Shown piece after piece: positions 13,871 through 26,231 of a DNA stretch of 60,132 nt. The DNA is taken from NCBI GenBank assembly GCA_026706845.1, contig JAPOXY010000036.1:1-60132 (forward strand), read 5' to 3'. The stretch's first letter is position 1; each line of letters begins with the position of its first letter. The DNA comes from Gemmatimonadota bacterium. GTDB lineage: Bacteria > Latescibacterota > UBA2968. Both the position numbers and the translations under genes were made by a program. The notes under the pieces are model-generated. The model ran no database searches. It had not been told where the DNA came from and saw only the letters and a list, made by a program, of their open reading frames with translations.

Positions 13871-15253
13871 ATGAAAAAACAAACTTTTTTCTTTTGCGGT
13901 ATTGGTGGCAGTGGCATGAGTGCCATTGCACAGGTGTTGTTGCATCAAGGCCATGCGGTGCGCGGGTCGGATCGCAGCTATGACCAGGGGCAGAATGCGG
14001 ATTTGTACGCGCGGTTGCAGGCGCTTGGGGTGGTGTTGTTTCCGCAGGATGGGTCGGGCGTGGATGCAGATGTGGATGTGCTGGTGGTGTCGAGTGCAGT
14101 CGAGCCGACGATTTTAGATGTACAGGCGGGGCTGGATCGCGGTATTGCTATTCGCAAGCGGGCAGAGGTGTTGGCGGACTTGTTCCATCGGGGAACGGGG
14201 ATTGCCGTGGGGGGTACGAGTGGGAAATCGACGGTGACGGGGATGATTGGTCATATTTTGAGCAGGACCGGGCGCGATCCCACGGTGATCAATGGGGGGA
14301 TGATGCGCGATGCTGTTCAGCCACCGCGATTGGGCAATGCACTGTGCGGGGATGCCGAGTTGGTCGTGATTGAGGCAGATGAGAGCGATGGCACGATTGC
14401 GCTTTACGAGCCGACGGTGTCGGTGTTGACGAATATTTCGCTGGATCACAAGCCGATGGCGGAGTTGGAGTCGCTTTTTGGGGCGTTTTGCGCGCGGGCA
14501 AGAGATGCGGTGGTGGTGAATCGTTTGTGTGAGCGGTCGATGGCTTTGACGCAGGGCGTAAAGCGGCGAGTGACTTTTGGGGTGGATTGCGAGGGGGCAG
14601 ATGTGAAAGCTACCGGTGTCGCGTTATTGCCCGATGGTGTGCGGTGCATTGTCAATGGGCAGGCTTGTCGGTTGCGCGTGCCTGGACGGCATAATGTCGC
14701 CAATGCGGTGGCGGCTATTGCCGCGTGTGGGGTGCTTGGGATAAGCGTACAGGATGGGGCAGAAGCATTGGGTGATTTTCAGGGGATTGGCAGACGGCTG
14801 GAGGTGGTGGGCAGGGCGCGAGGGGTGACGGTGATCGATGATTTTGCACATAATCCGGATAAAATTGCCGCGAGTTTGGCTACGCTAAAGGCGCAGCCCG
14901 GGCGCGTGCTGTCGGTGTTTCAACCTCACGGGTTTGGGCCAACGCGGTTTTTGATGGATGGGCTGATTTCGGCATTTGTCAATGGGATGGATGCGGATGA
15001 TCTGGTGATTATGTCGGAGATTTTTTATGCCGGCGGGACAGCGCAAAAGGATATTTCGTCGGGAGACTTGATTGCCCAGATTGCGCGTGCTGGGCGGCGG
15101 GCTGAGTATATTGAAAGGCGCGAGGATATTGTTGTGCGTTTGGCGGAGGAGGCCCGGAATGGCGATCGGGTTGTGGTGATGGGTGCGCGGGATGATTCGC
15201 TGACGGATTTTGCAAGAGATATATTGTCACAGATTGAGAGCAGGGTGCGATGA
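13871..15253 (+). CDS. Mur ligase, Mpl/MurC type (probable murein-peptide ligase)
   Basis: A 460-residue Mur ligase. The N terminus has the UDP-binding GIGGSGMSAIA; the ATP loop is GGTSGKST at 114-121, where MurC and Mpl normally read GTHGKTT; VIEADESDGT, SLDHK, PGRHNVANA and DDFAHNP are the expected Mur motifs. MurC joins L-Ala to UDP-MurNAc; Mpl reattaches the recycled tripeptide. The overlap (ATGA) with an LD-carboxypeptidase gene argues for Mpl and peptide recycling, but sequence alone does not exclude MurC. ATG 13871 gives the family-typical N terminus; a TTG four codons earlier is possible. No strong ribosome site is visible. Confidence 0.75.
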   Translation: MKKQTFFFCGIGGSGMSAIAQVLLHQGHAVRGSDRSYDQGQNADLYARLQALGVVLFPQDGSGVDADVDVLVVSSAVEPTILDVQAGLDRGIAIRKRAEVLADLFHRGTGIAVGGTSGKSTVTGMIGHILSRTGRDPTVINGGMMRDAVQPPRLGNALCGDAELVVIEADESDGTIALYEPTVSVLTNISLDHKPMAELESLFGAFCARARDAVVVNRLCERSMALTQGVKRRVTFGVDCEGADVKATGVALLPDGVRCIVNGQACRLRVPGRHNVANAVAAIAACGVLGISVQDGAEALGDFQGIGRRLEVVGRARGVTVIDDFAHNPDKIAASLATLKAQPGRVLSVFQPHGFGPTRFLMDGLISAFVNGMDADDLVIMSEIFYAGGTAQKDISSGDLIAQIARAGRRAEYIERREDIVVRLAEEARNGDRVVVMGARDDSLTDFARDILSQIESRVR

Positions 15254-16937: not shown

Positions 16938-16977
16938 TAGCCTTTGCGAATTTCACACTTCCTACTTCATACTTCCT

Positions 16978-17931
16978 ATGGTTCGTTTTCTCAAGTGGTT
17001 TTTTCCGATTTTTGCGGCGGTTCTGATTGTTGTGGCCGCCAGTGCGTACTGGTATGTGACGCCGCAGCGGTTAAAGGCGATTGTGCAGCCGCGTTTGTCG
17101 CCGGCTTTGGGCAGAGAGGTGATGTTTGACGGTATAGAGTGGGGGCTGTCTGATGGTGTGGTGATTTCGGGTTTGTGGGTGGGAAATGGGGATGGTTCTA
17201 ACCCTTTGTTGGTCGCGGAGCAGGCACAGGTGCATGTGTCGCCGAGTGCGTGGTTTTTGGGTGATAGGTGGTGGGGTGAGTTGGTGCTGGAAGATGCAGT
17301 TGTTTCGCCTGGGAGACAGGGGCGCGTTGAGTTTGTGTTCCGCCGTTTGGAGATGGATTTGTACCCCCAAAATGGGCGTTTATATCTCTCACAGATAAAA
17401 GGGCAGGTGTACGAAGGTACGCTCACGGGTGATCTGGTGTGGGATAATGGCGCGTGGGATGGTTCTGTGTCGCTTGCGAATGCCCAGGCAGAACAGGTCG
17501 TGCATTCGATTGGCTGGGATATTCCGCTTTACGGCGCGGTTGATATAATGGCTCAGGTTTCAGGGGCAAGTGTGAGCGGTACTGCAAGTATGGCCGAGGG
17601 GCGCATTGTGAAGTGGAATTTTTTACAGCGGTTGTTGCACCCGATGGCGCAATGGGGTTTGATAAATGCCGATGAGGTCCCGCTCAAAGATGTGACGGTG
17701 GTTTTTCAGGTGCAGGGCGATGAGGTGATTCTCGATGGGACAAAGTTCACTGCTTCAGATATAGCTTGTACGTTGAATGGTAAGACTTTGGGTGGGCAGT
17801 TGGATTATGTGCTGGATGTGGATATGCCGATCCAATTTGCCGGGTTTCGTTTGGGACGCGGGACCATTCCCATACGAGTAAAAATTACCGGTACGGCAAA
17901 TGCGCCAGAGGTGGCGGTGGAGATAAAATAA
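16978..17931 (+). CDS. AsmA-like membrane-anchored protein
   Basis: A 317-residue protein with one N-terminal membrane segment (about residues 5-25), then YVTPQRLKAIVQPRLSPALGREV, the beginning typical of AsmA/TamB-like proteins, and a beta-rich body. The C terminus (YVLDVDMPIQFAGF, PIRVKITGTANAPEV) matches the AsmA C-terminal repeat. AsmA proteins carry lipids or influence outer-membrane assembly; the length is short for the family. The ATG at 16978 directly follows a run of short CACTTC/TACTTC/ATACTTC repeats and has no ribosome site. A decayed copy of its last 42 codons lies at 23688-23816. Confidence 0.75.
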   Translation: MVRFLKWFFPIFAAVLIVVAASAYWYVTPQRLKAIVQPRLSPALGREVMFDGIEWGLSDGVVISGLWVGNGDGSNPLLVAEQAQVHVSPSAWFLGDRWWGELVLEDAVVSPGRQGRVEFVFRRLEMDLYPQNGRLYLSQIKGQVYEGTLTGDLVWDNGAWDGSVSLANAQAEQVVHSIGWDIPLYGAVDIMAQVSGASVSGTASMAEGRIVKWNFLQRLLHPMAQWGLINADEVPLKDVTVVFQVQGDEVILDGTKFTASDIACTLNGKTLGGQLDYVLDVDMPIQFAGFRLGRGTIPIRVKITGTANAPEVAVEIK

Positions 17932-17938
17932 ATTTTTT

Positions 17939-18052
17939 TTAAAGAGCCAGCACGATGACGATGACTATGCCGAGCACTATCAATCCGCCAAAAAAAACGA
18001 CGCAAAAGCCTTTGATAAAACCGCCCACGAAGCCATCTTTGTTGTCGTTCAT
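17939..18052 (-). CDS. Small single-span membrane protein, 37 aa
   Basis: An ORF of 37 residues below usual length limits. It starts MNDNKDGFVGGFIKGF, then has one membrane helix from about residue 16 to 37 (VVFFGGLIVLGIVIVIVLAL). A GAAGGAAA ribosome site precedes the ATG by about 10 bases and overlaps the end of the aspartic protease gene, so the two are probably co-transcribed. It converges on the AsmA-like gene with a 7-base gap. A degraded copy of its 3' end lies at 23819-23845, next to a degraded AsmA tail in the same convergent order, which supports it as a real gene. Function unknown. Confidence 0.6.
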   Translation of the reverse strand: MNDNKDGFVGGFIKGFCVVFFGGLIVLGIVIVIVLAL

Positions 18053-18066
18053 GTTATCCGTTTCCT

Positions 18067-18456
18067 TCAATCGCCGCGAACAAAGCCCTGAGAAGCCTTC
18101 AGCAGAACGGCTGGTAACCGTTTCAGTTTTTCATTCCGAGGGTCAACCTCAAATCCACCGGATTCTAAAGCGGTAACGCCGAGCAATGGTTCCGCTCCTT
18201 CTTCTCCGTACACAATAGTCCCACCGACGATTTCTCCCTCGAATTCGATCTCGGCGATGGTTATATCCATGGCCACAGGATTTCCGTCTGCAAGTACGCA
18301 ATCGCGACTACCCCTCGGTTCAAGTCCAATCTCTTCAAGGCGCACCCTCGGCACGAGCGAGTCGAACGCGCCAGTATCGACCTGGAATTTGTCGGTCCAG
18401 CTACGTTGTCGATCTGAGGGATTGCGGATTGTTACGTCAACATAAACCGCGGACAT
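18067..18456 (-). CDS. Clan AA aspartic protease-like protein
   Basis: A 129-residue single-domain retropepsin-like protein. The catalytic motif is VDTGAFDSLVP with Asp27, and the second half has LLGVTALESGGFEVDPRNEKLKRLPA, which is the usual C-terminal part of this bacterial family. Such proteins would work as dimers. Target unknown. It sits between the CRISPR array and the 37-aa membrane protein on the same strand; an upstream GGAGAACCACC gives a plausible ribosome site. It is common near toxin-antitoxin genes in other genomes, but no partner is evident here. Confidence 0.78.
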   Translation of the reverse strand: MSAVYVDVTIRNPSDRQRSWTDKFQVDTGAFDSLVPRVRLEEIGLEPRGSRDCVLADGNPVAMDITIAEIEFEGEIVGGTIVYGEEGAEPLLGVTALESGGFEVDPRNEKLKRLPAVLLKASQGFVRGD

Positions 18457-18523
18457 GGTGGTTCTCCTATCGGGTTGGTTGCGAATAGATTCTATCTAAA
18501 GGTTTTGAGGGATGTATGCCTAC

Positions 18524-18795
18524 ATGCACTTTCCGCATTAGTGGGGGACATATTTCGTCATTCGCGATCATTTCCATCGTGATCGGGCCATCCCCACGTA
18601 TGTGGGGAATATACAGAGGTCTTCCAATAAAACAAGGACTGAAATGGTACATCCCCACATACGTGGGGAACATGAAGGTCGGATGAAAACAGGCTGGATA
18701 GAGGTTGGTTCATCCCCACCTGCGTGGGGAACATGCAACGATTTCAGCGGTTGGAACATCGAAGCCGGTTCATCCCCACCTGCGTGGGGAACATG
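18524..18795 (-). CRISPR. Short, decaying type I-E CRISPR array
   Basis: Four 29-base repeats at 18585-18613, 18646-18674, 18707-18735 and 18767-18795, with a fifth, strongly degenerate one at 18524-18552. On the plus strand the best copies read GGTTCATCCCCACCTGCGTG then GGGAACATG; on the minus strand this is the CCCCAC...GTGGGG hairpin repeat of type I-E. Spacers are 32, 32, 32 and 31 bases. Repeats lose identity steadily towards low coordinates, so that side is the trailer end and the leader side faces cas3. No leader is present: the last repeat touches truncated cas3 coding sequence. Confidence 0.92.
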
Positions 18796-20098
18796 GTAAG
18801 ATGCCTAATAATGCCTGATCAATTGTACCGACGCCAACAGCAGCTAATAATGCTTTCTTGAGATTATCTGATAGCCAGGCACTACAATGTACACTTGCAG
18901 GTATTGTCTCATCGCCATAATTTTCTTCAGGGTTTTTGGACTCAGGTACAACTGCCTGACGAAAAGATTGGGAAAGATTGCGTGCGCTGTGTGCCAGAAC
19001 AATAGAAGGTTGCGTGTTTTGTGGAAAAAGGCGTTGATACACTGGCTGTTTATCATCACCTTTCATACGCTCAAACATGGCGTTTGCAGTCGCCATTGTT
19101 GGCAAGGCAATATACAGGCCAGCCCCCTTTTGATGTGCCATTAACCGGTTTGCTAACAACACAGCCGCTTCAGTTTTTCCTGCACCTGTTACATCTTCGA
19201 GGATATAAAGGCAAGGCCCTTTGCCAATCGTCAATTCTCCACATTTTGACTGCAACGGTGTTGGAATTTTAATATCCGGCGCAAACAAATCCTGCAAATT
19301 GTGCTCTTGAACAGGCGTATCTATTAGCAATTCTGTAAGATCCGTTGCTTTCTCTGCCTGCTTCAATGCCAATTGCCAATATTCATCCAACGGCATTGAT
19401 ACATCACAATAAGAAAAGAAATCAGCATTTGACCCAATCCAGTCACACAGAACTGCAACCCCAGCCAGCCACCAAGAGGCCATTCGCAACTTGGAGCGGT
19501 CTATTTCTGGTAAGGTCATAACGTCTTCAAACAACAGATCAATAACTGCCTGGATATAGCTTTTTGTTGATATGATGTCTTCATCAGCAAAATAATCTGA
19601 TAAAATTTGTTGCCCTTCTTTGGGAGGTTGCCCGTGATGTCCGGCTATGGCACGCATCCAATAGTCGTATCCCGTCTCTCGAACACGACGACCAGACGTG
19701 CTGGTTTTCGGCAGAAAATTTATTTTTTGGAAATATGTTCGGATACAATCTTTCCAGAGAATATACCCCAGTGTGTCATGAGGTAGATTATAGCCCTTGT
19801 TGCTTTCCCGATTTTGCAGTTTTTTTAATAAATCAGGACGCAAATTCTGGAAACCTTCTGCGAATTTGCCAACATCATGTAGTGCTAAAAAGAAGGTCAT
19901 GTATTGAACTAAGTGATTTTCGTCCAAGTCCGTCAGATATGCTAATGTGGTTCTTATTCGCTCATTTTTTTTTAAAAATATTTGTCCCACAGCAGCGACG
20001 TCTAAGCAATGGTATGGCAAAATATGTACTGTCATCTTCTCAGCCCCATATCCAGCTTTGCCCCAATACTTCCTGTGGTTATCTGTCCTCTGTTGCAT
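18770..20098 (-). pseudogene. cas3: Truncated cas3 (HD nuclease plus partial helicase), type I-E
   Basis: A 442-codon remnant of the CRISPR effector nuclease-helicase. The HD nuclease part is present (H74, D75 in LALHDVGKF; AGHHGQPP) and the helicase Walker A VTGAGKTEAA with IALPTMATANAMFERM. The frame then reads VGTIDQALLGILP and passes directly into the CRISPR repeat, ending at a TGA inside it. Normal Cas3 is about 850-900 residues; the DEAD-box motif II, the second RecA domain and the C-terminal domain are gone, as are all cascade genes, cas1 and cas2. The ATG at 20098 follows GAGGAAATT; the longer upstream frame is unlikely. Nuclease activity on its own might survive, but interference cannot. 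Confidence 0.9.
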
Positions 20099-20261
20099 AA
20101 TTTCCTCAGATTTAAATTTGATCTTGTCAAAATTTCGAATTGAATGAATTTTTGAGCGGCTAAATGTAGTGAAATTTTGTTCACTATGCAAGATTAACTT
20201 GCACCTATGATGCGGCTTTTCTATTTTCTGCATCCCAGAGGAACTGTCAGGAGAGTAAGTG

Positions 20262-20441
20262 ATGAACCACGACCATATCATAAAGGAAGTTCGAACGATT
20301 CGCGAACAACTGGCGGCATCACATGGCTATAATGTGCGTGCCCTGTTTGCGGCAGCAAAAAAACGCCAGCAAGAAAGTGGGCGAAAGGTCGTTAAATTGA
20401 CACCCAGGCGGTTAAAAATTGCAGATGAAAAAGCGGTATAA
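20262..20441 (+). CDS. Small antitoxin-like protein, 59 aa
   Basis: A 59-residue protein beginning MNHDHIIKEVRTIREQLAASHGYNVRALF and ending in a basic, proline-containing tail (VVKLTPRRLK). This pattern (EVR.IRE.LA...GYD...IF) is common in small proteins found beside toxin genes, so an antitoxin role is inferred. AGGAG at 20249-20253 supports either ATG 20262 or the GTG one codon upstream. No intact toxin follows directly; an overlapping ATG at 20425 opens a frame whose first part has no recognisable family. Confidence 0.6.
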   Translation: MNHDHIIKEVRTIREQLAASHGYNVRALFAAAKKRQQESGRKVVKLTPRRLKIADEKAV

Positions 20442-20679
20442 CCAATACGACTATACGCGACCTCAGTCTGCAAATCCGCTGGATATGATTTCTCTCATTC
20501 AAGTCCTTATTAAAAGGTCTGATTCCAGGATAATTTCTTTCCAAAAAAGTTGCTTTTCGTTCCGAAGTTGGCTATATCTTATTCGGCGACCAGAATGGGC
20601 CGGTGTCAACCGACTCAGGACAATGTCCCTGGCCGCTACTTTTTTGATCTCCTGCTCACACCCCTTTAAGGAGTTACTC
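20442..20679. other. Unassigned gap between antitoxin-like gene and TA pair
   Basis: A 238-base stretch with no convincing gene. A frame overlapping the end of the antitoxin-like gene (ATG 20425) continues through it into the next antitoxin but resembles nothing known. A second frame contains VAFRSEVGYILFGDQNGP before a stop near 20633. It may hold the remains of the toxin partner of the upstream gene. Confidence 0.3.
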
Positions 20680-20880
20680 ATGCTTAGCACTGCTTTGGGT
20701 ATTGTGAAAGACGGAAAAATCGAAACGTTAGAAAGCATTACATTGCCTGAGGGGCAAAAGGTATTGGTCACTATGTTGCCCGACGATAATATTTTTTGGC
20801 AAGAAGCCAGCCAGGAAACCCTGAAACAGATTTGGGATAATAAAAAGGACGATGTATATGCCCGATTACTTGATGAATGA
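20680..20880 (+). CDS. Antitoxin of PemK/MazF-type pair
   Basis: A 66-residue protein with the DUF104/AF2212-like or AbrB-like short-strand pattern GIVKDGKIETLESITLPEGQKVLV, followed by a C-terminal helix likely to bind the toxin. Start ATG 20680 has AAGGAG at 20668-20673, six bases upstream; a longer frame upstream lacks this. The reading frame overlaps the toxin start by 23 bases, the usual tight coupling of such pairs. It probably binds its own promoter and neutralises the toxin. Confidence 0.75.
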   Translation: MLSTALGIVKDGKIETLESITLPEGQKVLVTMLPDDNIFWQEASQETLKQIWDNKKDDVYARLLDE

Positions 20881-21190
20881 TATTGTACTTGTTCGATATC
20901 CCTTTTCTGATTTGCGTGTGTTCAAAGTGCGTCCAGCTATTATTGTGAGTGCGCCACATGTTTCTCAAGATGTCTTTATTGTCCCTCTTACCAGCCAAAT
21001 AACGAATCTTTTGCCGGGCGAGTTTGTGCTGGAGAATTGGAAGCAATCAGGACTCAATGTTGCGTCTGCTGTTAAACGAGGCATATATACCATTCATCAG
21101 AACTTGATTCTCAAGAAAGTGGGACATCTCGCACAGAAAGATCTAACGACATTGATTGTATCTTTGCGAAGTTGGCTGAATCTCACATAG
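20858..21190 (+). CDS. Type II toxin, PemK/MazF family
   Basis: A 110-residue endoribonuclease-like toxin. The SH3-like barrel signature is clear: DIVLVRYPFSD then VRPAIIVS, then FIVPLTSQ, and the C-terminal helix LTTLIVSLRSWL. In the family it cleaves mRNA. ATG 20858 is preferred over ATG 20852. It overlaps its antitoxin gene and its stop overlaps the convergent WYL regulator by 8 bases. All expected core motifs are present, so it looks intact, unlike the CRISPR and HEPN systems nearby. Confidence 0.85.
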   Translation: MPDYLMNDIVLVRYPFSDLRVFKVRPAIIVSAPHVSQDVFIVPLTSQITNLLPGEFVLENWKQSGLNVASAVKRGIYTIHQNLILKKVGHLAQKDLTTLIVSLRSWLNLT

Positions 21191-22154
21191 ATTTCGTTTC
21201 ATACATCCTTCCTGCCGCGATCATATCCTTTGCGATGACCTGTCGCAATTCCTCTGGTTCTATCACTTCGCAATCTGCGCCCCAGCCTCTGATCCACGGT
21301 TTCATCTCCAGCGTGTGGCTCACGGTTAAAGTCATGAGGCAGCCACCGTCTGGCTGGTTGTCAATGGCATCGACACAGGGCCAATCCGATTCCCGCACGC
21401 GGTATGCCACATTGGGCGAGAAGCGGAGTTTGACGACGATGCGCTCATCGCCGCCCATGACGCCCCATGCTTGTGTCAGATAATCGTAGGGATCGAAATT
21501 GTCCCTAATCTGATATGACGAATCGAGAATTTTGACCTGTTGCACGCGCTCGATTTTGAACTCTCGGATGTCGCGGCGCAAATGGTCATACCCGATCACA
21601 TAACAGGCATATCCCACAGGGGACGGCTCGATGAAGTATGGGTCAAAGACGCGCCTGGTGGTTTCATCGGTGTATGGATTGTAATACGTCAAACGCACCT
21701 GTTTGCGTTCAGACCACGCGCGGGTAAAGGTCTCCAGAATGCGGATGTACTCGCGATGCGGTCTGCGCTTGTGCGTGGCTTCGGCGGTTCGGGCGATGTG
21801 TTGACCGATTGATTCGGGAAGTGCGCTGGCGAGTTTTTCAAGTGCAGAGACGACATGCGGATTGTGTTTGTCGCTGTGCGCTGCGAGCAATCGGGCCGAG
21901 AGATACAGTGCGAGGGACTCGTGCAGATTCACGCGTACAGATGTGATATAGCGGTCTTTCACAACGCCAAAATGGTGATTTTCTTCCCAAATCGGCACGC
22001 CAGATCGCTCAAGAGAACGCAAGTCGCGATAAGCAGTGGTGCGGTGATACCCAAAGCGTTCGGCAATTTCACGAGCAGTTAGCCCTCGGGAAGATTGAAA
22101 AAGCAAATTTTCCAGCATTTTGAGTCGTTCTGCGCGGGTTTCGTCGCGGTCCAT
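21183..22154 (-). CDS. WYL-domain transcriptional regulator (YafY type)
   Basis: A 323-residue regulator: N-terminal helix-turn-helix (RAERLKMLENLLFQSSRGLTAREIAERFGYHRTTAYRDLRSLE), a linker, the WYL domain (VRLTYYNPYTDETTRRVFDPYFIE, CYVIGYDHLRRDIREFKIERV) and the WCX C-terminal domain. WYL proteins bind nucleic-acid ligands and often control CRISPR-Cas or DNA-damage genes; its position 1 kb from a type I-E remnant makes a former role in controlling that locus plausible. The start ATG 22154 has a perfect AGGAGG 7 bases upstream. The longer frame reaching 22244 is not needed. Confidence 0.9.
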   Translation of the reverse strand: MDRDETRAERLKMLENLLFQSSRGLTAREIAERFGYHRTTAYRDLRSLERSGVPIWEENHHFGVVKDRYITSVRVNLHESLALYLSARLLAAHSDKHNPHVVSALEKLASALPESIGQHIARTAEATHKRRPHREYIRILETFTRAWSERKQVRLTYYNPYTDETTRRVFDPYFIEPSPVGYACYVIGYDHLRRDIREFKIERVQQVKILDSSYQIRDNFDPYDYLTQAWGVMGGDERIVVKLRFSPNVAYRVRESDWPCVDAIDNQPDGGCLMTLTVSHTLEMKPWIRGWGADCEVIEPEELRQVIAKDMIAAGRMYETKSM

Positions 22155-22431
22155 AAAACCTCCTGTGTGACAATATAAGACATGGGTGTTGCGACTTTCG
22201 CTACACATGATAAAAAAATCGTGGGATGGGATAAACGGAATCAAAATAGGGCGCGTTGTGGGTGGGATTTTAGAGAGGGTAAGTTATGGGAGGATAGTGT
22301 ATTGATTGACAAATTCAGCAGGAGACAAAATGGGAATATTTTGGTATGAATCCAAATCAACGAGATGAAGGTATAGACAAAATGAGAGCCAGGAGAGCGT
22401 GGTTATTCCACCGACTTTAAATCGCATTAGA
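22155..22431. other. Intergenic stretch upstream of the WYL gene
   Basis: 277 bases without a recognisable gene. A 12-codon frame (ATG near 22330 behind AGGAG) is too short to support. AT-rich segments with a TTGACA-like box occur but no matching -10 at correct spacing was found. Confidence 0.4.
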
Positions 22432-22713
22432 TCAATTTGAGGTGGTTAGAGAGCGATGGGTCATACCTACGATTTCACCGGTGTGGTCATTGATTTCAAC
22501 GACTTTGAACGAACGGTTCTTCCAGTCTTGTCCCCCGAGGTTGGCTGCCAGGCTCCTCCGTTCCCATGGACGAGAGAACCCTATGGTTATTTTCCAGGCA
22601 TTTGCTGTTTCGTCGAATACCACCTCTTCAAGTCCTAAGTCCTGAACTTCCTCGTCGGCAAATAGTTCGGTTATGTATTTGTTCGCCGTCCGTACGGCTT
22701 CTTTTACGTTCAT
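22432..22713 (-). CDS. Conserved hypothetical protein, 93 aa
   Basis: A 93-residue soluble protein: MNVKEAVRTANKYITELFADEEVQDLGLEEVVFDE, then WKITIGFSRPW, then FKVVEINDHTGEIVGMTHR. A helix followed by a PepSY-like beta sheet is suggested. Similar small proteins occur in cyanobacteria and other phyla next to toxin-like genes, but no function is known. GGAGG 6-7 bases before the ATG supports the start. It lies 31 bases downstream of the HEPN remnant on the same strand and could be part of that transcript. Confidence 0.7.
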   Translation of the reverse strand: MNVKEAVRTANKYITELFADEEVQDLGLEEVVFDETANAWKITIGFSRPWERRSLAANLGGQDWKNRSFKVVEINDHTGEIVGMTHRSLTTSN

Positions 22714-22744
22714 TTATGCCTCCATTTCTGCGATCTTATTATTT

Positions 22745-23151
22745 TTATTTTTTCATACGCAATTTTACGCCACATTCTTGCAAATAGGTTCTTATTCTTG
22801 CTATAAATTTTTCTGCATTTTCTATTAAATCGTCCGCGGCCTCTTTAGAAATGGGTATCTGAATACTGTAATCCGCAACAATCCGTTGATCCTGTTCTTG
22901 TGAAAGAATGCGTGCCCACTCCTTTTCAATATGACCGGGGTTGACCAGTATTTTCCCAAAGAGCCGGCGTAATGCAGCATGAGATTCTGCAAGGGTGTTG
23001 TGATAGAACAAAGCCGCTTTTGCTGCATGCATCACAGCGTAATAACCTCGTGAGACAGCGTCTTCGTAGAGATCTTCTTTCATTAGTATCTGAGCTGCCT
23101 GAAGGGATTTTAGGCCGCGTTAAATTCTGAAACAATGTTTTCTTGGTTCAT
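22745..23151 (-). pseudogene. HEPN-domain toxin (HepT-like), frameshifted near the N terminus
   Basis: The open part (ATG 23083 to 22745, 112 codons) has the HEPN core EDAVSRGYYAVMHAAKAALF with the R...H active-site pair. The true start is ATG 23151, whose ATGA overlaps the stop of the nucleotidyltransferase gene. From it the frame reads MNQENIVSEFN and hits a stop after 13 codons; one added base near 23115 would join it to RGLKSLQAAQIL and the open part, giving the usual full-length HEPN. So one base has been lost, or the sequence has an error. A shortened protein from ATG 23083 would lack the first helix. Confidence 0.8.
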
Positions 23152-23495
23152 AAAACAGGTATTCCATCCCGCGTAACGGTTTGCCAGAAGGGGGCTTCAT
23201 AGTCCTGGTGGTATATCCATTCCTCAGCAGTAAGTACGATAAGTGAGGGCACAACTTCGGTGCCAATCGCGAGCGTGTATCCGGGTTCAGCAACCGACTT
23301 CTTCGTTTTCCAATCTCCCTCGTGGATGACAACGAGAACATCCAGATCAGAGTCCTCATCGGATGATCCACGCGCTTTGGATCCAAAGATAATGAGATCT
23401 TTGATAAGATTCGCAAATTGTGCTTCCAGAGCTTTCTGGTAAGCTTCAAGCCAAATGCGTTCTTCGCGCGTCAATGTCAAAGTTTCTAAGGCCAT
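23148..23495 (-). CDS. MNT-type minimal nucleotidyltransferase (antitoxin)
   Basis: A 115-residue nucleotidyltransferase of the polymerase beta superfamily with the motif FGSKARGSSDEDSDLDVLVV, keeping the GS and both aspartates. In MntA/HepT (type VII) toxin-antitoxin systems such a protein AMPylates and silences the HEPN RNase. The stop overlaps the original start of the HEPN gene (ATGA), as expected for this pair. This half is intact although the HEPN partner is frameshifted. Confidence 0.85.
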   Translation of the reverse strand: MALETLTLTREERIWLEAYQKALEAQFANLIKDLIIFGSKARGSSDEDSDLDVLVVIHEGDWKTKKSVAEPGYTLAIGTEVVPSLIVLTAEEWIYHQDYEAPFWQTVTRDGIPVL

Positions 23496-23603
23496 AATTC
23501 TGAAAAATTGAGAGGTTTTGGTACAGTCTGCCTACCTAGAGAGTAACCAATTTATACTTATAAGAAAAGCATTTCCGAGTGCGAAAAGGGTCAAAATAGG
23601 GAA

Positions 23604-23697
23604 AGTTGGACGGGGTCTTGTTGTGTGTCGGGTTGTGGGGGGGATTGTCTGGCGGGTCTGTCATGGGGATAGCACACGGCCTTGAAGGGGCAGGTGG
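23604..23697 (-). pseudogene. Remnant: 3' end of a RecB/Cas4-like nuclease gene
   Basis: 94 bases that align without gaps to 25270-25363, the end of the intact nuclease gene, with about 80 identical positions by eye. On the minus strand it still reads CPFKAVCYPHDRPARQSP and ends near QQDPVQLS. At its high-coordinate end it passes into the AsmA-like tail through GGGCAGGTGG, a sequence both parents nearly share. Confidence 0.75.
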
Positions 23698-23816
23698 ATT
23701 ATGTGCGGGATATGCCCATTCAATTTGCTGGATTTCATCTGGGCAGAACCATTCCCATACGCATAAAAATTGGCGGCGCGGCAAGCGCGCCAGAGGTGTC
23801 GGTGGAATTAAAATAG
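23688..23816 (+). pseudogene. Remnant: C-terminal tail of an AsmA-like gene
   Basis: 42 codons plus TAG reading GQVDYVRDMPIQFAGFH, then LGRTIPIRIKIGGAASAPEV and SVELK. This matches the last codons of the intact gene at 16978-17931 with two in-frame deletions (two codons and one codon) and many silent changes, so it probably came from a diverged paralogue rather than a recent local copy. Confidence 0.8.
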
Positions 23817-23818
23817 GC

Positions 23819-23845
23819 TTAAAGGGCCAGTAGAAGGATAATGAA
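23819..23845 (-). pseudogene. Remnant: 3' end of the small membrane protein gene
   Basis: On the minus strand it reads FIILLLAL and stop, matching IVIVIVLAL and stop of the 37-aa protein at 17939. It converges on the AsmA remnant with a 2-base gap, copying the arrangement at 17931/17939. Confidence 0.6.
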
Positions 23846-23859
23846 CCTCCGCGTGGTTT

Positions 23860-25230
23860 TTAACTCATCTGGAACCGAAACGCAAATAGATCCGCGTCCT
23901 TGAGGGTGAAGCGTAACCGCACTGGCTGACCTGCCAGCAGACGCATATCTCTCCCACTCTCCCAACGGACTGTACCGTCGATGGCATCACCGAATATCTC
24001 AGGGCACTCGTCCAGTGCGAAGCCCGGCTGCGGATGCCCTTCCATATCCTGGATCTCAACGCGCACAAATCCCACCGCTGATGTGGAAAAGTTCAATCTC
24101 AGACTGTCGCCTGTGAAAATTAACGGACGGGTGACGAATTCGCCGCCAGCGTAGCCTGCCCGGACCGATACGAACCCGTCGGTTCGGAGCGAGAACCGAC
24201 GAATATGGACAGTTGGCAGGCGCCAGTTTTCCATACCGTACAGCGAGAGTTCATCGGGCGATGTTTGCAGAATGCCCCGCTCCATGTACATCCCGCGCTC
24301 ATGCCAGTTGCCCTCATCGAGTCCGGGACGGACAAAAGCCTCCATGAAGTTGCGAGCGAAGTGGCGTCCATCGCGGCTGGACATAAACACGATGTCATTC
24401 ACGCCTGAACCGTATTTCCAGCCCGGAATTGGCTCGCGTTCTGGCACGAAGCGTGACGGAAACATCAGATACACGCCCGGCGCCCGCTCATAAGGCACGC
24501 AGGCATTGGTGTAGAGATGTTCATAGGGAATCTCGCCGGTGTCAATCAGTTCAAGCGGTGTCCAATGGCGAAAGTCTTTGGAGGTCGTGCGGCGAATCCA
24601 GCGCACCCCGTTTATGAAGTTGCCCTTACCCGCCACGCCGCGTGTGTACGCGACATATTCCTCCTGTTCCACGTCCCAAAAGGCGATATTGTGTGAATCA
24701 AAGGGTTGATCGGTCAGGATTGGCGCATCCTGCATCAGTCGCCAGCGGAGACCGTCAGGCGAGACCAACGCGAGTACATCACTGGTGCGTACAATGGCTT
24801 TGTACCGTTCTTCGTCCAACGCGTCGGGATTACCATCGCGAAACGGCGACATGTTCTTACCTGGTCCCGCCCAGACGAGGTTATTCTCTTTCGAATCTTG
24901 AAACGCAATCAGTCCGAGTCGTGGCTTCTCCCAGTGAACGCCGTCGGTGCTTTCAGCGTAGGCGGTGAGCGGTTGACGCGTACCGCGAATCGGCATCTCC
25001 TGGTCGCAGCGATACCACGCGCGGAACCGGTCGCCGTCGCGGAATGTTACCATATATGACACACCGCCTCGTTCCCACGGATGTTCAGGGGAAATTACAA
25101 CCTCACGACGCACAGGTTCATGCAAGCGTTGCGTGACACCCTGCGCTTCAGCAATCCAGAAATTGTCCACGAATAGTTGGCGGTCTGTGCCGATGTGGAT
25201 AGGTGAACTGTTGTTATCTTGTCGTTCCAT
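23860..25230 (-). CDS. Glycoside hydrolase-like beta-propeller protein (GH32/GH43 superfamily-like)
   Basis: A 456-residue protein starting with the family mark DRQLFVDNFWI, followed by repeated propeller blades carrying aspartate/tryptophan turns (ESTDGVHWEKP, SPDGLRWRLM, SKDFRHWTPL, SSRDGRHFAR) and a C-terminal beta-sandwich (FSTSAVGFVRVEIQDMEG). This form is common in planctomycete-like and related genomes and is placed near five-bladed GH32/43/62 enzymes; a polysaccharide-related role is likely but the substrate is unknown. No signal peptide. It lies 26 bases after the nuclease gene on the same strand and is flanked by two copies of the nuclease 3' end, suggesting insertion. Confidence 0.72.
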   Translation of the reverse strand: MERQDNNSSPIHIGTDRQLFVDNFWIAEAQGVTQRLHEPVRREVVISPEHPWERGGVSYMVTFRDGDRFRAWYRCDQEMPIRGTRQPLTAYAESTDGVHWEKPRLGLIAFQDSKENNLVWAGPGKNMSPFRDGNPDALDEERYKAIVRTSDVLALVSPDGLRWRLMQDAPILTDQPFDSHNIAFWDVEQEEYVAYTRGVAGKGNFINGVRWIRRTTSKDFRHWTPLELIDTGEIPYEHLYTNACVPYERAPGVYLMFPSRFVPEREPIPGWKYGSGVNDIVFMSSRDGRHFARNFMEAFVRPGLDEGNWHERGMYMERGILQTSPDELSLYGMENWRLPTVHIRRFSLRTDGFVSVRAGYAGGEFVTRPLIFTGDSLRLNFSTSAVGFVRVEIQDMEGHPQPGFALDECPEIFGDAIDGTVRWESGRDMRLLAGQPVRLRFTLKDADLFAFRFQMS

Positions 25231-25256
25231 TTTGGACTCTTTCGTTTATAAAAAAA

Positions 25257-26231
25257 TTAAAAAAGTGAGAGTTGAACGGGGTCTTGTTCTGTGGTGGGTT
25301 GTGCGGTTGGCTGCGTGGCAGGTCTGTCATGGGGATAGCACACGGCTTTGAAGGGACAGGTGGTACACAGGTGGGTATTTGTCGTCATTGGGAAGGCATC
25401 TTGCGAAGCGGTGTTTTGCTCGGGGTCGTTGAGGAGGACGCGCATTTTCTGGACGCTCTCGGTGACAAACATACGGGTCTGGTCGAGGTCGTCAAGAGAG
25501 AGGTGTAGGGTGCGTTCGGTGCTGGTTTGCAGGTAGATGTCCTGGAGTTGCAGGTCGGATAATGCGACGTCCCACTGCGAGGTGGCATAGAGAGCGTACA
25601 CAGCGAGTTGATGGCGGTCAGCCTGGCGTTCACGCCCGGTTTTCCAGTCGAAGATATAGACCGATTTGTCGCGGCGAATCGCCACGTCGAGCACGACCCA
25701 GATTTTGGTATTGGCAAGGGTAAAATCTTTGAGGTCTTCAATGGTGAGATAGTCTTCGGGGCGGGCAGTTTGGAGGGTGGCGTAGGCATCGGAGGCAAAA
25801 AAAGCGTTGAGACTCGTCGAGATGTGATTGGCCGACTTGTTCTGATCGGTTTCGGTAAAGGGTTCGTTGTAATAGTGTTCAAACAAATTGGTGTATCGAG
25901 AGGCCGAATAGCGCCAGAGATGATCTCTGGATTCTTGCAGGTGTTGGTGGAATAAATTTTGCGCGTAGGTCTCGACGGCAAAGGGGAGAATATCGCGTCC
26001 CAATTTCAGTGCATTGAGCGCGTTGCTGATGGCGTCGTGAACCACGGTACCGACGAGTTGCGGTACCGTGGTTATTTTTTTCAGGCGATAGAGCAATTGG
26101 GTTTGCTCGTCGGCGTCTTTGTCCCAGCCACCCCAACTGCCGTAGTAGTTGAAGTAGTATTGTCGCTTGCACGAATCAAACATGCGATGGCGCGAAGGCG
26201 ACCAGGAGAATTCGTTTTGGAAATTGGACAT
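25257..26231 (-). CDS. PD-(D/E)XK nuclease, RecB/Cas4-like with probable Fe-S cluster
   Basis: A 324-residue nuclease. Core motifs are LVGTVVHDAIS (helix with the conserved His), VVLDVAIRRDKSVYIFDWKTG (the D...D-x-K active site) and HQLAVYALYA (QxxxY). Cys21 in FDSCKRQYYF and three cysteines in CTTCPFKAVC form the four-cysteine pattern of AddB/Cas4-type iron-sulfur nucleases. It could act in recombination repair; Cas4 proper is usually about 200 residues. It follows aroA by 3 bases. A copy of its 3' end lies at 23604. A 13-bp perfect hairpin followed by a T run on the opposite strand lies inside the gene. Confidence 0.83.
   Translation of the reverse strand: MSNFQNEFSWSPSRHRMFDSCKRQYYFNYYGSWGGWDKDADEQTQLLYRLKKITTVPQLVGTVVHDAISNALNALKLGRDILPFAVETYAQNLFHQHLQESRDHLWRYSASRYTNLFEHYYNEPFTETDQNKSANHISTSLNAFFASDAYATLQTARPEDYLTIEDLKDFTLANTKIWVVLDVAIRRDKSVYIFDWKTGRERQADRHQLAVYALYATSQWDVALSDLQLQDIYLQTSTERTLHLSLDDLDQTRMFVTESVQKMRVLLNDPEQNTASQDAFPMTTNTHLCTTCPFKAVCYPHDRPATQPTAQPTTEQDPVQLSLF
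26040..26081 (+). terminator. Terminator-like hairpin inside the nuclease gene, antisense orientation
   Basis: AACCACGGTACCG (26040-26052), 8-base loop, CGGTACCGTGGTT (26061-26073), then A and a run of seven T on the plus strand. The stem is perfect over 13 pairs. It would stop plus-strand transcription that runs antisense to the nuclease gene. Confidence 0.45.

Follow-up and report, generated by a model that had tools for sequence, protein, structure and literature searches.

A short chimera of gene tails in a defence-gene hotspot, probably the seam of an ancient event of the tandem-duplication type

At positions 23604-23842 of the window (the whole stretch of 60,132 bp analysed here), the ends of two adjacent genes are fused within a non-coding segment of about 240 bases, in an order opposite to that of the genes themselves. 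We consider it very probable that this relic is the seam of an ancient event of the tandem-duplication type in a defence-gene hotspot, whether in an internal or an integrated form. The genes from which it derives flank one and the same variable island, a circumstance that the first-pass annotation had missed and that speaks for a seam rather than a random fusion of distant genes.

The parents of the relic were identified by BLASTN. When positions 23560-23880 were compared with the whole genome (5.46 Mb in 279 contigs, with the window on contig C36), only two other strong matches besides the relic itself were obtained, namely the 3' end of a nuclease gene at 25259-25363 (84% identity over 105 bp, E 1.7e-25) and the 3' end of an AsmA-like gene at 17794-17930 (78% identity over 137 bp, E 3.4e-25). 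Two further matches were both at chance level, and this whole-genome search revealed no other source locus for the relic. The left part of the relic (23604-23697, minus strand, 31 codons), assigned by BLASTN and by comparison with relatives, shares 84-85% identity with the 3' tail of the intact PD-(D/E)XK nuclease gene (25257-26231, minus strand; Pfam, 3.4e-18). The adjoining part (23692-23816, plus strand) comprises 41 codons plus a TAG stop codon and has 78% identity with the 3' end (17794-17931) of the intact AsmA-like gene (16975-17931, plus strand), whose product has no Pfam match and for which the name is kept solely as a label from the first reading. After the AsmA stop of the relic, the minus strand reads FIILLLAL*, which corresponds to the C-termini of the intact copies of a small membrane protein. 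This third piece of about 26 bp (23817-23842, minus strand) is the 3' end of the respective gene, which is complete in the relic of G006, a genome from another species of the same genus. The earlier description of the segment as a chimera of three gene tails was borne out by BLASTN and by the recurrence of the fusion in G006, and a relative with one intact gene spanning the region in a single frame was sought and is absent from 60 genomes.

The copy of the fusion in G006 (contig C3, 77921-78147) is 87% identical to that of the window over 227 bp, without indels and with the same join point. A 6-bp gap is common to the two relics, which cluster with each other with a support of 0.90. To the right of the relic, G006 contains a complete second small membrane protein gene with an open frame and a protease gene, and positions 17796-18480 of the window match 78007-78679 in G006 with 85% identity. 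The relic is absent from nine other congeners. The junction pattern was not found in viral contigs, and spread on viruses was rejected on these grounds. That the fusion is shared suggests an event predating the divergence of the species of the window and G006, unless the seam was later exchanged between both.

At the junction (23688-23697), the nuclease sequence of most relatives, GGGCAGGTGG, and the AsmA sequence, GGGCAGTTGG, are alike in nine of ten bases with an exact run of six (GGGCAG). The frequency of an exact run of at least 6 bp at a random join of the nuclease and AsmA genes is 0.0025 (0.25%). A join driven by microhomology, as first proposed, gains statistical support from these figures that falls short of proof, and we infer that microhomology probably mediated the join. 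The single mismatched junction base (G/T) differs between the relics of the window and G006, so that one later change must be assumed.

The intact AsmA-like gene, from which the right half of the relic derives, forms the left border of the hotspot and is convergent with the gene of the small one-helix membrane protein (MNDNKDGFVGGFIKGFCVVFFGGLIVLGIVIVIVLAL; 17938-18052, minus strand), which is followed by a gag-asp/retropepsin-like protease gene (18067-18456, minus strand). The latter is copy 1; copy 2 lies right of the relic in G006. Island A (18572-23495) carries a CRISPR mini-array, a truncated Cas3e, a MazF/PemK-like toxin and a WYL regulator together with genes for a 93-aa protein, a HEPN protein and a nucleotidyltransferase, and in relatives several of its genes natively adjoin the nuclease on its downstream side. 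Positions 18572-20281 represent a type I-E CRISPR-Cas remnant with a mini-array of few repeats and a Cas3e shortened to 503 aa, which covers positions 19-314 of the 680 of the profile; G002 has about 7.4 kb between array and cas3 that are missing from the window. The left flank of the relic (23542-23603) is homologous to the DNA that natively follows the nuclease stop codon in G002, G004 and G005. On the other side follow a 1.4-kb cassette encoding a 456-aa protein without Pfam match (23843-25244, minus strand) and the intact nuclease gene, which gave rise to the left half of the relic and marks the right border of the hotspot. The left boundary of the cassette (GAACCTCCGCG) is identical in the window, G003 and G006, and the cassette occupies differing positions within the hotspot among relatives. 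A Pfam scan of 10 window proteins revealed neither integrase nor transposase, and no target-site duplications at the relic were seen among local repeats. A tRNA-type attachment site was rejected because the window contains no tRNA.

Comparison of 11 genomes revealed a common order in which AsmA (rightward) and the small gene (leftward) are followed by variable defence genes and then by the nuclease and aroA (both leftward). In this genus, the interval between AsmA and the nuclease is thus a hotspot with variable content between conserved genes. In G001 (C89) and G010 (C43), AsmA and the nuclease lie convergently about 1.5 kb apart on one contig each, separated by the small gene and the gene for the 456-aa protein. 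Contents of the interval in G006 include type I restriction genes as well as a PADLOC candidate. G002 has one contig with AsmA, the small gene and the protease and another with cas3, WYL, nucleotidyltransferase and nuclease genes; both end in a CRISPR array in matching orientation, and an overlap between the two ends was not found. AsmA and the nuclease probably border one region in G002 as well. In G007, a single chromosome, AsmA and part of the small gene are located in reversed orientation at 1.18 Mb; the remainder of the small gene is found at 2.29-2.31 Mb along with the protease, WYL and nuclease genes. This is consistent with one inversion of about 1.1 Mb with a breakpoint inside the small membrane protein gene, reversal of which would bring back the usual arrangement. 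At both inversion ends in G007, about 56 bp of the small gene are present.

If a unit reaching from inside AsmA to inside the nuclease is repeated, one new seam is expected, with the nuclease tail followed by the AsmA tail in direct orientation and intact genes outside. This is what is observed: at the seam, the downstream end of the unit runs directly into its upstream end without a change of orientation, and in both the window and G006 the complete parent genes flank it as expected, AsmA to the left and the nuclease to the right. A repeated unit is the simplest route by which a nuclease tail comes to lie left of an AsmA tail in direct orientation, with both outer genes intact. The borders of the unit are linked without a scar on the single contigs of G001 and G010 mentioned above. 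Native downstream DNA of the nuclease is predicted left of the seam and matches the flank described above, and the second small gene and protease predicted to the right are present in G006. As for the interior of the second copy, the small gene is retained in G006, and nothing beyond about 26 bp remains of it in the window. The protease is kept left of the relic in the window and right of it in G006, where copy 1 is devoid of a protease gene, as expected from reciprocal loss of copies. The undegraded two-copy state was found in none of the genomes compared.

We propose that the ancestral order was AsmA (rightward), then the small gene and protease (both leftward), then CRISPR-Cas, WYL and toxin genes, and finally the nuclease and aroA (both leftward). 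A unit bounded by the GGGCAG of the AsmA tail and that of the nuclease tail would have been repeated head to tail, either by intragenomic microhomology or through an integrated circular or concatenated copy from a relative. The product would have had the order AsmA, island, nuclease tail joined to AsmA tail, island, nuclease, with intact outer genes and useless fused tails inside. Gene loss would then have proceeded independently in each copy. In the window, the protease and Cas remnants would have been kept on the left, and on the right a deletion would have fused the small-gene remnant (about 26 bp) to the 456-aa cassette; in G006, the right-hand copy would have retained its small gene and protease, and a type I restriction system would have been acquired. 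Homology, gene order, the common junction, the native flanks and the reciprocal retention are directly observed; a single duplication, its microhomology mechanism and the later losses are inferred. The relic is missing from G001, whose distance to the window is no greater than that of G006, and the trees of aroA, the nuclease and the left flank disagree, such that no species tree is available on which to place the event. Its absence from G001 requires loss or exchange. Recombination has obscured the history, so that loss of the relic from G001 and G010 through recombination between repeats is plausible.

The AsmA part of the relic had initially been read as carrying in-frame deletions that pointed to a diverged paralogue as its source. 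This does not hold for the 3-bp gap, which is also present in the intact AsmA of six relatives (G001, G002, G003, G005, G006 and G010); it is the intact gene of the window that, together with G007 and G009, has the longer form with an extra 3 bp. The 6-bp gap occurs only in the two relics. As the former is a common allele and the latter is shared by the relics, no paralogue is needed, and with no additional copy detected in this genome or in genomes of the same genus this source was rejected. The intact AsmA of the window is 96-98% identical to that of G006 at 17650-17850 and 76% identical at 17850-17950, where it joins the allele of G007 and G009, so that its last 80 bp or so differ in allele from the rest. 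Such a switch is a sign of a recombination breakpoint beside the island, that is, of homologous exchange at the hotspot border. It was the single allele switch seen in AsmA when the region was tested as a recombination hotspot. In the 94-bp nuclease tail, the window relic resembles the nuclease of other species (91%) more than that of its own genome (85%), a finding compatible with integration from a relative and with internal duplication alike; trees of such short tails are weak.

Integration would have involved a circular or concatenated donor hotspot that already carried the seam of nuclease tail and AsmA tail and entered by homologous recombination in the 3' end of AsmA, bringing along island A and leaving the resident AsmA tail as the relic, with the same end product as tandem duplication. 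The allele breakpoint beside the island and the documented turnover of hotspots through recombination in flanking core genes (PMC5635113) argue for this variant. However, G006 has the seam without the allele switch, which may therefore be a later, separate exchange, and the tail trees are short and weak. It is a tentative variant that takes up the smaller part of the probability given to both forms together. In view of the allele switch in AsmA, we do not decide whether the extra unit arose by internal duplication or was integrated from a relative.

Explanations outside the tandem-duplication reading fare less well. Pieces of nuclease and AsmA tails could have been set side by side by unrelated illegitimate events, and other gene-tail fragments do occur in the hotspot, e.g. 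the second WYL tail in G003 and G009. Yet two events would be needed, and neither the native left flank nor the long right continuation in G006 nor the microhomology is predicted, so that we regard two independent captures as improbable. Still less probable is that selection maintains a short functional element or gene, such as a small ORF or a terminator. In its favour, the AsmA frame is open over 47 codons in both relics, no indel separates them over 227 bp, and one terminator-like hairpin is present (23792-23774, minus strand). On the other hand, the element is truncated in the window and absent from nine other congeners, and a terminator role was rejected because one weak hairpin compares with 0.4 expected by chance, as was a promoter role because no promoter-like site was found. 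A functional small ORF was rejected for want of a codon-position signal: the changes between the relics are evenly spread over the three codon positions (12/7/8), whereas the intact nuclease and AsmA genes have an excess at third positions (94 of 157 changes; Fisher p 0.006, from small counts). This fits inert non-coding DNA. An assembly or binning artefact might be suspected given the fragmentation of the source genome into 279 contigs, but it has next to no probability since the same join, diverged by 12-13%, is found in G006; the shared fusion likewise rules out a chance origin.

Tandem duplications with short homologies are known in bacteria (PMC11111574), and the relic resembles them in the direct repeat, the novel end-to-start seam and the short GC-rich homology at the seam. 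Here, however, the event is ancient and the repeat units are almost wholly eroded, leaving the seam and the borders. With hotspots turned over through recombination in flanking core genes, as described in 2017 (PMC5635113), the region shares conserved borders, variable content including defence genes, the allele switch in a border gene and the lack of an integrase among the proteins examined; it differs in that both border tails are preserved in an additional internal copy. As in defence islands and core defence hotspots (PMC10250203, PMC10121019), defence content lies between fixed neighbours, including type I-E Cas remnants, type I restriction, a toxin and candidate defence genes. In contrast to those, the location is the AsmA-nuclease interval, the organisms belong to Latescibacterota and the content is partly decayed. 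The mechanism is ordinary; the instance is unusually well preserved because a relative carries the same seam. It provides a physical footprint of a defence hotspot that duplicates and re-sorts its contents in an uncultured phylum, and as the seam is common to two species, gains and losses on each side can be ordered. Short intergenic non-coding DNA can also record rearrangement history that is missed by gene annotation. An improbable extension would be that genes at the borders and in the cargo (AsmA, nuclease, WYL, small gene) repeatedly provide short exchange sites in their 3' tails. If so, new cargo would enter with a duplicated tail, amounting to an integrase-free cassette system with gene-tail repeats as footprints.

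Gene-tail repeats recur in this hotspot, and second copies of the WYL 3' tail are located in G003 (C54:16865-17428) and G009 (C406:10826-11536). In addition, repeats of about 41 bp flank aroA, in inverted orientation in G002 (C41:12647-12687 and 14208-14248) and in direct orientation in G003 (C54:18893-18933 and 20414-20454).
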